In this document: positions 6,629 through 14,274 of the stretch, piece after piece
Layout: every line of letters starts with the position of its first letter
Position numbering within the stretch: the stretch's first letter is position 1
Source: a virus
Direction: 5' to 3' (one strand)
IMG/VR virus record: IMGVR_UViG_3300032278_004259
Span: 1 to 36,728 of that record
DNA: 36,728 bases
The notes under the pieces: generated by a model
What the model was told of the DNA's origin: nothing
The model's database searches: none
Seen by the model: only the letters and a program-made list of their open reading frames with translations
Program-made: the position numbers and the translations under genes

Positions 6629-6979
6629 TCAACTGGTTGTGCGATCCCGGCCGGGCGTGGTGGCGGCGAGAGCCGCCAGTATTCGCTCCGAGGTCTCGCG
6701 AGGAACGAGGCGGAGGTCGCCATTTATGATGAAATTGAAGTCGATGCCGCGCGTGCGGTAGAAAAACCGCATCAATCCGATGGATGGGCGGCCTTTGCGG
6801 ACCTGGTTGTTGATCGTCTGGAGTGGTCGCTGCAGAGCCTCCGCGACTTCGACTTGCGACAATTCAGAGGCTGTGAGGGCGGCTTTCAGGCGCGCGGCAA
6901 TGGCCTCGTCCGAGGTGTCGCCGAACCGTGTGAGTCGGTCGATCTGATCGGGATCCCTGTTCACGCCGTGCTCCGTCAT
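6629..6979 (-). CDS. XRE-type HTH lysogeny repressor
   Basis: A small repressor (116 aa from ATG 6979, 118 from ATG 6985) with one XRE/Cro-CI helix-turn-helix at about residues 25-65: LKAALTASELSQVEVAEALQ, then RPLQTINNQVRKGRPS. There is no C-terminal LexA/S24 peptidase domain, so induction cannot depend on RecA-driven self-cleavage of this protein. It is transcribed against the Cro-like gene, with operators between them, which is the normal switch layout. No ribosome site precedes either ATG. A TATAAA box lies such that transcription should begin at the ATG at 6979, so the mRNA is probably leaderless. Confidence 0.85.
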   Translation of the reverse strand: MTEHGVNRDPDQIDRLTRFGDTSDEAIAARLKAALTASELSQVEVAEALQRPLQTINNQVRKGRPSIGLMRFFYRTRGIDFNFIINGDLRLVPRETSERILAALAATTPGRDRTTS

Positions 6980-6985
6980 GGACAT

Positions 6986-8234: not shown

Positions 8235-8540
8235 ATGCGCCTGATATCTCCCGTATTCCATCCGCGCGCCCGCGTTTCGGCCGAGGTCGAGACGCTGACG
8301 GCGCGCGTCATGCGCGATGTCGTCGCGCGCGAAGGCCATGTCGGACGGGCGCCTGAGGGCGCGCGTGTCGGCTCGCTCGGGCCGGTGGAGCTGGGCATGT
8401 GCCGCCTCGCCGCGGTCAAGATCCGAGAAGGCGGCACCCTGTCGCTGGTCGCGCGCGATCTCGGGCTGGAGCGCGAGCAGCTGAAGCGGCTGATGACGCG
8501 GGCCGGGCACGGTCCAGACGGGACGGAGGTGATCCGGTGA
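8235..8540 (+). CDS. Hypothetical phage protein with HTH-like C-terminus
   Basis: A 101-aa protein of unknown family. The C-terminal half (LAAVKIREGGTLSLVARDLG, then LEREQLKRLMTRAG) reads as a helix-turn-helix of the kind found in small phage regulators. The ATG at 8235 has AGGAGG six bases upstream, and the gene overlaps the methyltransferase start as GTGA, so both are translated together. It may regulate or assist the methyltransferase; that is inference only. Confidence 0.6.
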   Translation: MRLISPVFHPRARVSAEVETLTARVMRDVVAREGHVGRAPEGARVGSLGPVELGMCRLAAVKIREGGTLSLVARDLGLEREQLKRLMTRAGHGPDGTEVIR

Positions 8541-9265
8541 CGCAGAACCGATCCGCGGCCGTCATGCAGCAGCGCCACGAGGCGCCGGACAGCCTCGATG
8601 ATTTCCCGACGCCGCCCTGGGCGACACGGGCGCTCTGCAGGGCACTGATCGACGGCGGTGAGCCCCTGCACGCGCAACACGTCTGGGAGCCGGCCTGCAA
8701 CCGGGGCCACATGGCCCGGCCGCTGGGCGAGTACTTCGCCTCGGTTCATGCGACGGACGTTCGCGACTATGGCTGGTCGGGACAGGCCGCCGTCGCCGAT
8801 TTCCTGATCGACTGGGGGGCCGACGCGCCCGATGTCGACTGGATCGTGACGAATCCGCCTTTCCGGCTGGGTGCGGATTTCGTCCGGCAGGGTCTGCGGA
8901 TCGCGCGGCGCGGCGTGGCGATGTTCGTCCGCTCCGCCTTCGTCGAGGGCGAGGAACGATACCGCACCCTGTTTCGCGACAAGCCCGAGGCCAAGGTGAT
9001 GCCATTCGCCGGCCGGGTCGTGATCTGGAAAGGTGTTCTGCTGGATCCGGACGTGAAGATCTGGTTCCCGCCGAAGAACGGCAAGCCCGGAAAGCTGGAA
9101 AAGCCCAGCACCGCCACGTCCTACAGCTGGCTGATCTGGCTGGTAGGTCACGACGCCCCGACCGTGCATCTCCGTATTCCCGATTGCCGCCGCGACCTCA
9201 CGCGGCCCAGCGACTATCCCCCCGTCCCCGAACATCTGCGCCCGCCCGCCGGCGGGCTGCTTTGA
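8537..9265 (+). CDS. SAM-dependent DNA methyltransferase (adenine-type)
   Basis: A 242-aa protein with the features of small phage methyltransferases: DDFPTPPWATRAL near the start (residues 21-33), the SAM-binding motif I WEPACNRGHMARPL (50-63), a motif II-like ATDVRDYG, and the catalytic motif IV VTNPPF (104-109) typical of N6-adenine enzymes. It should methylate phage DNA, giving protection from host restriction. The GTG at 8537 overlaps the preceding stop and has GGAGG seven bases upstream. No matching restriction enzyme is present, so it is an orphan methyltransferase. The target site cannot be read from sequence. Confidence 0.85.
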   Translation: MTQNRSAAVMQQRHEAPDSLDDFPTPPWATRALCRALIDGGEPLHAQHVWEPACNRGHMARPLGEYFASVHATDVRDYGWSGQAAVADFLIDWGADAPDVDWIVTNPPFRLGADFVRQGLRIARRGVAMFVRSAFVEGEERYRTLFRDKPEAKVMPFAGRVVIWKGVLLDPDVKIWFPPKNGKPGKLEKPSTATSYSWLIWLVGHDAPTVHLRIPDCRRDLTRPSDYPPVPEHLRPPAGGLL

Positions 9266-9291: not shown

Positions 9292-9549
9292 ATGCCCGAC
9301 CACGTCGACAGCTCCGGTGATGACCGGACCGCGAACAATGCCATGCGCCACAAGTACCGGGTGCTGGACGAGCGCGAGAAGGCGCTGATGGAAGAGGTAA
9401 AGGACATGGGCCTCGCCTTCGTCGAAAAGCTTCACGAGATCGGCGGGACCGAGCCCGAGGGTGAGCGTTTGGCATCGCGCGACCTCAGTCTCGCCCAAAC
9501 ACACGTTGAAGACGCCGTGATGCGCGCGGTTCGCCACATCACGGCCTGA
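9292..9549 (+). CDS. Acb2/Tad1-like hairpin protein, candidate anti-CBASS cyclic-nucleotide sponge
   Basis: An 85-aa helical protein. Two helices are connected by a short turn: one around residues 20-50 (HKYRVLDEREKALMEEVKDM) and one around 62-83 (SRDLSLAQTHVEDAVMRAV, then RHIT). This matches my memory of the Acb2/Tad1 hairpin family, which ends in S-R-x-L-x-x-A-x-T-x-x-E-x-A-V-M-x-A-V-x-x-I-T. From memory, Acb2 proteins form hexamers that sequester cyclic di- and trinucleotides and so silence CBASS defence; Y22 and K37 here have the same 15-residue spacing as the ligand-binding Tyr and Lys reported for Acb2. The ATG at 9292 has an AGAGG ribosome site. It lies in the early region next to a methyltransferase, consistent with counter-defence. 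The family call is by eye. Confidence 0.7.
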   Translation: MPDHVDSSGDDRTANNAMRHKYRVLDEREKALMEEVKDMGLAFVEKLHEIGGTEPEGERLASRDLSLAQTHVEDAVMRAVRHITA

Positions 9550-9704: not shown

Positions 9705-10361
9705 ATGGCCTATCCGGCAAGCGTCCTGACCGCCTCGGGCAGTCTGCGGGCCGTCGATGTTGCCGAGCTGGAAGAATATCCGCTCGGTGCCGAGGACCGG
9801 CTGGAAAGCCATTTCTTCATCGCCTGGGAGCATCGGCGCTGGCTGAACAGCGAGATGCGCCTGAAGGGCGCGGAAGAGGCGCGGGCGCTCTATTTCGACC
9901 TGATCTGCCTGTCGCAGGATCAGTCGCCGGTCGGCACGCTGCCCGACGATTCCGAGCAGCTGGCGAAGCTGCTGGGCGTCGAGGAAGCGCGCTTCCGCCG
10001 TCTCTGCGACACGCCCTATGGGCCGCTGCATCACTGGGAACCCTGTCTCTGCGACGGCGTGATACGCCTGATGCATCCGGTCGTCCTGCGGATGGTCCTC
10101 GATGCCCGCGCGCGCAAGCAGGACAACCGCGCGCGGATGGAGGCCGCGAACCGCCAGAAGCGGGTCCAGCGGCTGCGGCAGGTCGTGGGCGGCATCCACG
10201 CCGATCTGGCGAAGAACGACGCCGCCGTCCTGTGGATCGATGAATGGCTGGAAGGACAGGGCTGCACCTATCGCAGCATCAGCTGGGTCCAGAATGCCAT
10301 CGGCGCGTGGTCCGATCACACCGTGGGGCGCGTGCACACGGGTCGGCGCGGCCCGTCCTGA
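9705..10361 (+). CDS. Probable replication protein (DUF1376-like, gpO-type)
   Basis: A 218-aa protein. Its N-terminal half (about 35-130) resembles the DUF1376-type winged-helix module of phage replication proteins: HFFIAWEHRRWLNSEMRLKG, ARALYFDLICLSQDQSPVGT, LPDDSEQLAKLLGV, then a beta segment ending in HPVVLRMVLDARARKQ. The basic stretch after residue 130 (ARMEAANRQKRVQRLRQ) could contact DNA. The ATG at 9705 has GGGAG nine bases upstream. The gene is followed at once by a cluster of GGACAG repeats, the kind of place where phage origins lie, so origin binding is a reasonable guess. Confidence 0.5.
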   Translation: MAYPASVLTASGSLRAVDVAELEEYPLGAEDRLESHFFIAWEHRRWLNSEMRLKGAEEARALYFDLICLSQDQSPVGTLPDDSEQLAKLLGVEEARFRRLCDTPYGPLHHWEPCLCDGVIRLMHPVVLRMVLDARARKQDNRARMEAANRQKRVQRLRQVVGGIHADLAKNDAAVLWIDEWLEGQGCTYRSISWVQNAIGAWSDHTVGRVHTGRRGPS

Positions 10362-11917: not shown

Positions 11918-11920
11918 CGT

Positions 11921-11995
11921 GTCCGGGTGGAGCAGAGGCAGCTCGCGTGGCTCATGACCACGAGGTCGGCGGTTCGATCCCGTCCCCGGCAACCA
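11921..11995 (+). tRNA. tRNA-Met(CAT)-like gene with a mismatched acceptor end
   Basis: A full cloverleaf can be drawn: acceptor GTCCGGG, D-arm GAGC/GCTC with a seven-base loop, a perfect anticodon stem CGTGG/CCACG with loop CTCATGA (anticodon CAT), variable AGGTC, T-arm GGCGG/CCGTC with TTCGATC, 3' acceptor CCCGGCA, discriminator A and an encoded CCA. Acceptor pairs 3-7 fit, but pairs 1 (G-A) and 2 (T-C) are mismatched. It is not a standard initiator: the three G-C pairs of the anticodon stem are absent. It may be a diverged phage tRNA or a decaying copy. Confidence 0.7.
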
Positions 11996-12075: not shown

Positions 12076-12786
12076 ATGCTGAGCCTGCGGATCGATCATC
12101 TCGACCTTGACCGGGGGCTGAGCGAACTGGAGCGCCAGCATCTGCCGCGTGCGACGGCATGGGCGCTGAACGACACCGCGGCCGATGTGCTGGAGCACAT
12201 GCAGAACAGGATGCGGACGGAGTTCGACCGGCCCACCCGGTTCACCCTCAACGCCTTCATGGTGTGGAGAGCCAAGCCGTCCGCGCTCACGGCGGAGGTT
12301 CGCGAGCGGCCGTCGGTCGGGGCGCGCCATTTCCTGAAGGTGCAGGAACTGGGAGGCGCGCGGCCGAAGACGGGGCTGGAGCGGCTGATCGGATCGCGCC
12401 TGGCATATGAGGGGTCGATCATCGGCGTGGTGCCGGCCGCCGGGGCACGGCTGAACAGCTTCGGCAACTGGTCGCCGGGCGAGCGCAATCAGGTCCTGTC
12501 AGCGATCCAGGCGCAGGGCGACAGCCGCGCGAACACCACGAAACGGTCAGCGGCTAAGGCGAAGGGCAAGCGCGCCGGCTACTTCGTGCCGCGGCCGGGG
12601 TCGAAGCTTTCGCCCGGCGTCTGGAAGCGCTCCGGGCGCGGCAGGATTTCGAAGGTGCTGCACTTCACGTCGGCGTCGCCGAACTATGATCGGCGGCTCG
12701 GCTTCTACGACGGTGCCGAGGCGGTGTTCGATGCGCGGTTCGCCGACCATCTGCGGCGGACGCTCTCGCGGGCCATGTCCAGGTGA
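12076..12786 (+). CDS. Minor tail protein Z-like (tail completion) protein
   Basis: A 236-aa protein with the pattern of phage tail Z/virion morphogenesis proteins as I know them: LPRATAWALNDTAADVLEHM near the start, then the signature FDRPTRFTLNAFMVWRA, VQELGGARPKTGLERLI, and a glycine/proline-rich middle (FGNWSPGERNQVL). The C-terminus is basic and ends with FADHLRRTLSRAM. Such proteins cap or complete siphophage tails. In lambda order Z would lie between the FII-like and U-like genes, yet no Z is found there; this gene sits 9 kb upstream, isolated between two terminators. The ATG at 12076 has GGAG eight bases upstream. Confidence 0.6.
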   Translation: MLSLRIDHLDLDRGLSELERQHLPRATAWALNDTAADVLEHMQNRMRTEFDRPTRFTLNAFMVWRAKPSALTAEVRERPSVGARHFLKVQELGGARPKTGLERLIGSRLAYEGSIIGVVPAAGARLNSFGNWSPGERNQVLSAIQAQGDSRANTTKRSAAKAKGKRAGYFVPRPGSKLSPGVWKRSGRGRISKVLHFTSASPNYDRRLGFYDGAEAVFDARFADHLRRTLSRAMSR

Positions 12787-12903: not shown

Positions 12904-14274
12904 ATGTCCCTGAAAATCGAGAACGTGGCGGTCAGTGCACTGGTGCCCTACCAGCGGAACGCACGAACGCATTCGCACGATCAGGTCGCGATCATCGCGT
13001 CGTCGATCGAGGAGTTCGGCTTCACCAATCCGATCCTCGTCTCGGCCGACATGGAGGTTATCGCCGGCCATGGCCGTCTGGCCGCCGCCAAGCACCTGAG
13101 GCTTGTCGAGGTACCGGTGATCCGGCTGGGGCACCTGTCCGAAGCTCAGCGGCGCGCGCTGGTGATCGCCGACAATCGCATCGCCGAACTGGCGGGATGG
13201 GACGAGGATCTCCTTCAGTCGGAGATCGAGGCGCTCGCCGCCACCGAGCTTCCGCTGGAGGTGCTGGGCTTCTCTCAGGCCGAGCTGGACGAGATCCTCG
13301 ACGATGTGGAGGAATCGCTGGCGGAGGCGTCCTTCGACCCGGAGGCGGTTCCGCCGCTCGAAACCTCTGCGGTTACAAGCGCAGGCGATGTCTGGATCCT
13401 CGGGCGTCATCGGTTGATCTGCGGCAGCGCGACCGAGAAGGCCACGGCCGATCTGTTGCTCGCTGGTGAGCTTGCCGACTGCGTCTGGACCGATCCGCCC
13501 TACAACGTCGATTACGAGGGGGCGGCCGGCAAGATCGCGAACGACAACATGGGCGCGTCCGAGTTCCGGTCGTTCCTCGACGCCGCCTTTGCCGTGATGT
13601 TCTCGGCCATGAAGCCCGGCGCGCCGATCTACGTGGCGCATGCCGACACCGAGGGTCTTGCGTTCCGCGGCGCCTTTGCCGAGGCAGGCTTCAAGCTGTC
13701 GGGGTGTCTGGTGTGGGTCAAGCCGTCGCTGGTGCTGGGGCGATCGGATTACCAGTGGCGCCACGAGCCGATCCTCTACGGCTGGAAGCCGGGCGCTGCG
13801 CACTTCTGGAAAGGCGGCCGTGCGCACACCACGGTCGAGGAGTCCGGATCCGCCGGCGTGCGCGTCATGCCGGATCGGTCCGTGCAGGTCGATGTCGGCG
13901 ACCGGACCCTGATCGTGCGCGGATCGGATCTCGAGCTGTCGATGCTCGACGGCAGCGTGATCCGCGTGGACAAGCCGCGCGCCAATTCGGTGCATCCGAC
14001 CATGAAGCCGGTCGAGCTGATCTGCCGCCAGCTGGGCAACAGCAGCCCGCGCGGCGCGGTCGTGATGGATCCGTTCGGCGGGTCGGGGTCTACCCTGATG
14101 GCCTGCGAGATCACCGGGCGCTCTGCTCGCCTGTCGGAGCTGGATCCGCGCTTCTGCGACGTGATCGTGAAGCGCTGGCAGGAAGCATCGGGCGGTGAGG
14201 CTCGCCACGAGGCCACCGGACAGACGTTTGCGGAGCGGTGCGCTTCGGTGCTCGATCTTGCGGAGGCGTCCTGA
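12904..14274 (+). CDS. ParB-domain/DNA methyltransferase fusion
   Basis: A 456-aa two-domain protein. Residues 1-135 form a ParB/Srx-type N-terminal domain (VSALVPYQRNARTHS, then SIEEFGFTNPILV, VIAGHGRLAAAK and ALVIADNRIAELAGWD). Residues 155-450 form a beta-class DNA methyltransferase: DPPY motif IV at 197-200, VHPTMKPVELI, and the SAM-binding DPFGGSGSTLMACE at 389-402. This fusion is common in proteobacterial phages, usually beside terminase, and methylates DNA at adenine or cytosine amino groups, probably for restriction protection or packaging control. No good ribosome site precedes ATG 12904. It is preceded by a terminator and a TTG-repeat stretch (12879-12892), so its own promoter is expected there. 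Confidence 0.9.
   Translation: MSLKIENVAVSALVPYQRNARTHSHDQVAIIASSIEEFGFTNPILVSADMEVIAGHGRLAAAKHLRLVEVPVIRLGHLSEAQRRALVIADNRIAELAGWDEDLLQSEIEALAATELPLEVLGFSQAELDEILDDVEESLAEASFDPEAVPPLETSAVTSAGDVWILGRHRLICGSATEKATADLLLAGELADCVWTDPPYNVDYEGAAGKIANDNMGASEFRSFLDAAFAVMFSAMKPGAPIYVAHADTEGLAFRGAFAEAGFKLSGCLVWVKPSLVLGRSDYQWRHEPILYGWKPGAAHFWKGGRAHTTVEESGSAGVRVMPDRSVQVDVGDRTLIVRGSDLELSMLDGSVIRVDKPRANSVHPTMKPVELICRQLGNSSPRGAVVMDPFGGSGSTLMACEITGRSARLSELDPRFCDVIVKRWQEASGGEARHEATGQTFAERCASVLDLAEAS

Follow-up and report, generated by a model that had tools for sequence, protein, structure and literature searches.

A temperate phage gene for an Acb2/Tad1-family hairpin protein and its likely role as a cyclic oligonucleotide sponge

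The hairpin gene and its phage context

The window, which is the whole stretch of 36,728 nucleotides that we analyzed, is a temperate phage; it has an integrase gene (PF00589) at 1-1161, leftward DUF5131 and DUF2303 genes, and it also encodes a GpA-type terminase, a lambda-type portal and a capsid with a Clp protease. Between two rightward neighbors we found an open reading frame of 85 codons plus stop that begins with ATG, has a Shine-Dalgarno-like AGAGAGGTGA upstream and a start that is conserved in homologues. The genes that bear on its interpretation are as follows.

6629-6985, minus strand: repressor-like gene, divergent from the rightward operon (phrog_4583, transcriptional repressor, E=5e-5)
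8537-9265, plus strand: DNA methyltransferase gene, the upstream neighbor, 26 nt before the hairpin gene (phrog_799, E=1.2e-45)
9292-9549, plus strand: gene for the Acb2-type hairpin protein of 85 aa (PF24729, PDB profile matches, AlphaFold2 hairpin, dN/dS)
9705-10361, plus strand: replication-protein-like gene, the downstream neighbor, 155 nt after the hairpin gene (phrog_22470, E=5e-4)

When we compared the hairpin gene with ten homologues, nucleotide differences were mostly at third codon positions and the pairwise dN/dS (NG86) was approximately 0.09-0.29, indicating that the gene is real and is maintained by purifying selection. The original prediction had placed it next to a methyltransferase, and the match of 8537-9265 to phrog_799 confirms this neighbor; a longer methyltransferase reading frame at 8399-9265 had no Pfam match. 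The predicted placement of the hairpin gene in an early region likewise fits the layout, with the divergent repressor-like gene at 6629-6985 and the replication-like gene starting at 9705. Further along the window, the early operon is followed by a tRNA-Met (CAT) gene at 11920-11995 and then by a tail/neck gene (phrog_1924) at 12076-12786, and a second methyltransferase gene at 12904-14274 encodes a ParB-N domain fused to an N6/N4 DNA methylase.

More than 100 phages and prophages, most of them from Alphaproteobacteria, encode homologues of the hairpin protein. The genomes that carry close relatives (Salipiger, Gemmobacter, Thalassovita, Aquimixticola, Albimonas and others) are mostly alphaproteobacterial, many of the genes are found beside phage genes, and a hairpin gene is present in 18 of the 397 genomes that we sampled from the Salipiger family. 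Judging from these relatives, the phage host is probably an alphaproteobacterium that is Rhodobacteraceae-like. The relatives have DUF2303 and integrase genes or portal genes nearby, a methyltransferase is not a constant neighbor, and the position of the gene varies among early, lysogeny and structural regions, as expected of a mobile accessory or counter-defence gene. In Sinorhizobium phage Aussie, gp37 (L007 7983-8219) lies in the structural operon between the head-to-tail adaptor and stopper genes. Two hairpin genes at separate places are present in Thalassovita litoralis (L094/L095), the Rhodobacteraceae MAG P03SWT1bin.7 (L089/L093) and Aquimixticola soesokkakensis (L135/L145). A hairpin protein with 53% identity is also encoded by 'Dunaliella viridis virus SI2' (HQ332136.1, L006 8001-8228), which has an alga as its listed host and is classed as a tailed phage; its true host is probably a bacterium.

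Family membership and predicted fold

In a Pfam search, the 85-aa protein matched PF24729 (Acb2/Tad1 hairpin) and no other family; residues 21-84 align to positions 1-57 of the 58-position model with E=4.8e-16 and 59.1 bits, where the curated cut-off is 27 bits. The family consists of small sponge proteins that capture the alarm nucleotides of bacterial defences against phages. A PHROGs search gave two weak matches, one of which is phrog_717 (E=0.0033), the PHROG that Jenson et al. used as the Vs.4 family and that contains Vs.4 homologues (PMC10097602). PADLOC had no model matching the protein. We then combined the protein with seven relatives in a profile, and a search of every PDB chain sequence with it found 8h2j and 8ixz (Acb2 p26) at E=5e-4, 7uq2 (Vs.4) at E=0.0045 and Tad1 (7uav and 8kbe-8kbh) at E=0.008-0.009, and the next match, at 0.74, is a chance match. 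The profile search replaced a single-sequence phmmer search of the PDB, in which sigma factors and a designed repeat protein were the sole matches, all judged to be due to chance. Membership of the Acb2/Tad1 family had been guessed by eye, with a profile search set as the check, and the PF24729 score far over the cut-off together with the Acb2, Vs.4 and Tad1 matches turned this guess into an assignment that we regard as settled at the level of sequence.

AlphaFold2 with 63 sequences predicted two helices, at residues 27-51 and 63-84, that form an antiparallel hairpin in the monomer model with pLDDT mostly above 90 and an N-terminus of low pLDDT; the model therefore contains the helical hairpin that had been claimed earlier. 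The hairpin stands alone without a Tad1-type beta domain; ahead of the first helix there are approximately 26 residues, most of them disordered. Single-sequence folding had given one long helix pair (pTM 0.38) and was superseded by the 63-sequence model. When we searched the PDB with the model by Foldseek, the top eight folds were all Acb2/Vs.4 with weak E-values of 0.2-0.4, a ranking that is not significant by itself and is consistent with, not decisive for, an Acb2/Vs.4 fold.

Conservation around the putative ligand pocket

The following parts of the gene encode residues that we compared with characterized proteins and with 66 relatives.

9310-9351, plus strand: conserved N-terminal segment, residues 7-20 (S7, D10, R12, N15, N16, R19, H20), from conservation
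9355-9357, plus strand: Y22, aligned with PaMx33 Acb2 Y11 and T4 Vs.4 Y8 (cyclic-dinucleotide stacking Tyr)
9400-9402, plus strand: K37, aligned with PaMx33 K26 and T4 K23 (cGAMP contact)
9475-9546, plus strand: second helix, S62-R63-x-L-S-L-A68-x-T70-x-x-E73-x-A75-V-M77-x-A79-V-R81-H-I-T84, from alignment and conservation

In T4 Vs.4, the cGAMP pocket consists of Y8, H11, K23, R79 and F82, the hexamer needs L29, A66, A73 and A77, and these residues were tied to cGAMP binding or to the hexamer by mutation or structure (PMC10097602). In our alignment, the pocket residues correspond to Y22, L25, K37, R81 and T84 and the interface residues A66, A73 and A77 to A68, A75 and A79; by numbering, L29 corresponds to about F43. 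The original prediction had claimed a spacing of 15 residues between Y22 and K37, which is correct; the two align with Y11/K26 of PaMx33, which we take to be ligand contacts, and with Y8/K23 of T4, each pair with the same spacing. The C-terminal pattern that had been pointed out (S62-R-D-L-S-L-A-Q-T-H-V-E-D-A-V-M-R-A-V80) is also present and is strongly conserved in relatives.

Across the relatives' alignment, the pocket residues are invariant or nearly so. Y22 and K37 are both present in 63 of the 66 relatives; there is no variation at K37, T70, E73, A75, M77 or A79, and the conservation of Y22 is about 91%. R63, which is invariant by weighted count (63 sequences), aligns with PaMx33 R67 and with the SR motif of Tad1, both presumably cyclic-trinucleotide contacts. 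The stacking aromatic of T4, F82, is absent at the aligned position, where the protein has a T84 that is invariant in the clade. PaMx33 Acb2 also lacks F82 and has Ala at this position, so F82 does not define the Acb2 family.

The N-terminal segment carries the motif SxSDxRTxNNxxRH, and its key residues are complete in 61 of the 66 relatives. With a mean entropy of 1.23 bits (residues 7-21), its conservation is about equal to that of the first half of helix 1 (1.20 bits, residues 22-40); the Pfam model does not cover it, PaMx33 and T4 Acb2 do not have it, and its pLDDT in the monomer model is low. That the segment is conserved yet predicted to be disordered in the monomer suggests that it orders upon ligand binding or in the hexamer. 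At the other end, residue 85 is the last of the protein, and almost every relative extends by two residues or fewer; the C-terminal tail, which is approximately five to six residues in the alignment of PaMx33 and T4 Acb2, is missing in 65 of the 66.

The relatives form two subclades, and the changes are perfectly linked within each. Subclade A (24 sequences, including this protein) has a loop insert, D/N64, HxED, R78 and R81, and subclade B (42 sequences) has no insert, E64, K/N71, W78 and K81 (rarely R); the signature of this protein is the loop insert, H71, D74, R78 and R81. These linked changes may reflect ligand specificity, and T84, the missing tail, the N-terminal segment and the subclade signature could together mean a different ligand preference. 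The original prediction had been cautious about ligand preference, and the change from F82 to T84, the loss of the tail and the presence of the conserved N-terminal segment show that this caution was warranted. We tentatively offer, as an idea more speculative than probable, that in an alphaproteobacterial Acb2 branch the SxSDxRTxNNxxRH segment replaces the tail and the stacking aromatic as pocket lid, and that the two subclades (R78/R81 with the loop and W78/K81) are tuned to different cyclic oligonucleotides.

Other hairpins in Rhodobacteraceae (L138 1501-1656, L139 1501-1653, L141 1501-1650, L143 1501-1671 and L144 1501-1656) score over the PF24729 cut-off, but neither the N-terminal motif nor the Tyr/Lys pair seems to be present in them, and PF24729 therefore probably takes in proteins with different or no ligands. 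The same bacterial family also has a PaMx33-like Acb2 (L126 1501-1683; GYRPLSED...RWLAIGRTQIEQGFMAVNRAV plus a tail), in a genome with a strong SMODS cyclase.

Proposed function and comparison with known systems

Homology with T4 Vs.4 and PaMx33 Acb2 makes Acb2-like sponge action likely, and by analogy with these proteins we consider it probable that the protein acts as an Acb2-type sponge, hairpin-only and hexameric, which captures the cyclic oligonucleotides of CBASS. As in T4 and PaMx33, protomers of two antiparallel helices each would assemble into a hexamer, in which pockets between subunits would hold cyclic dinucleotides via Y22, K37 and R81 and the trimer ends would probably hold cyclic trinucleotides. 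The protein would be expressed during infection or induction, when it would sequester, and not degrade, the cyclic oligonucleotide of the host CBASS cyclase; the CBASS effector would then stay inactive and the phage could replicate. The identity of approximately 22-24% to characterized proteins counts against the sponge reading, as do T84 and the missing tail.

Two hosts of relatives have CBASS operons: Salipiger pallidus, the host of a 74%-identical relative, has a CD-NTase and 2TM effector operon, and Methylorubrum rhodesianum, the host of a more distant relative, has a CD-NTase and NucC operon. Among 101 near relatives, a SMODS cyclase is present in 3 of 4 genomes with the hairpin gene as compared to 8 of 97 without it (p=0.004). 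When we performed the same comparison on 397 family genomes, a set that overlaps the 101, the counts were 4 of 18 and 36 of 379 and significance fell to p=0.10; co-occurrence was therefore rejected as proof. Among Rhodobacteraceae genomes the hairpin gene is thus weakly associated with CBASS cyclases, which we take as weak support for the sponge reading.

The ligand itself could be another one. A sponge of the same family that mainly binds some nucleotide signal in place of 3',3'-cGAMP, such as the cyclic trinucleotides cA3 or cAAG, is a possibility that we hold to be rather unlikely; it is prompted by the remodeled dinucleotide pocket, in which T84 stands for F82 and the N-terminal segment takes the place of the tail, all three features being fixed or nearly fixed in the relatives. 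The invariant R63, at the position of the presumed trinucleotide contacts in PaMx33 and Tad1, and the cyclase-NucC operon in the host of a relative point the same way. However, the dinucleotide pocket keeps Y22, K37 and R81, and PaMx33 Acb2, which also lacks F82, nevertheless binds 3',3'-cGAMP (PMC12043709).

Readings outside a CBASS-type sponge are much less probable. The hairpin family is common to this protein and Tad1, but a Tad1-like sponge of the Thoeris signal gcADPR is very unlikely in a protein of only 85 aa, and this function was set aside because the N-terminal beta-sheet domain is missing. We see equally little chance that this is a small virion or regulatory protein merely having the hairpin fold: although Sinorhizobium phage Aussie and some prophages have the gene within or close to their structural operon, the way it shifts between early, lysogeny and structural regions is unlike a structural gene, the PF24729 match is specific and the pocket residues are hardly ever changed. 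Helical hairpins do match many proteins weakly, as the sigma factor and designed repeat matches illustrate, but a PF24729 score more than twice the curated cut-off and a profile search that singles out Acb2, Vs.4 and Tad1 refute a chance likeness of two amphipathic helices, which we regard as practically excluded.

The phage gene is a further member of a family that is already characterized and in Pfam, with a few clade-specific changes. With it, this counter-defence family reaches temperate phages whose hosts are Rhodobacteraceae and other Alphaproteobacteria, groups in which CBASS is little studied, and the two subclades, whose changes near the pocket are perfectly correlated, provide a clear comparison for the evolution of sponge specificity. 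PaMx33 Acb2 (p26; 8h2j, 8h2x, 8ixz) is likewise hairpin-only and of similar size; besides the Tyr/Lys pair and R67 (R63 here), it shares R85 (R81 here) and the Thr and Met of the second helix, but identity is approximately 22%, its longer inter-helix loop and C-terminal tail are both missing here, and it has no SDxRTxNN segment. T4 Vs.4/Acb2 (7uq2), at approximately 24% identity, has the same Tyr, Lys and Arg (Y8/K23/R79) and the same three interface alanines; in contrast, F82, W76, H11 and S74 are T84, R78, L25 and V76 here, the tail is missing and the N-terminal segment is added. Tad1 (7uav, 8smd, 8kbe-8kbh) has in common with the phage protein the SR...A.T.VE.A.M pattern of the second helix, whereas Tad1 binds gcADPR and has an N-terminal beta domain that the phage protein lacks. 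The closest likeness is to other alphaproteobacterial phage hairpins of the type of Sinorhizobium phage Aussie gp37 and the Salipiger pallidus prophage protein, which are 50-75% identical and have both the N-terminal motif and the pocket residues in common with this protein.
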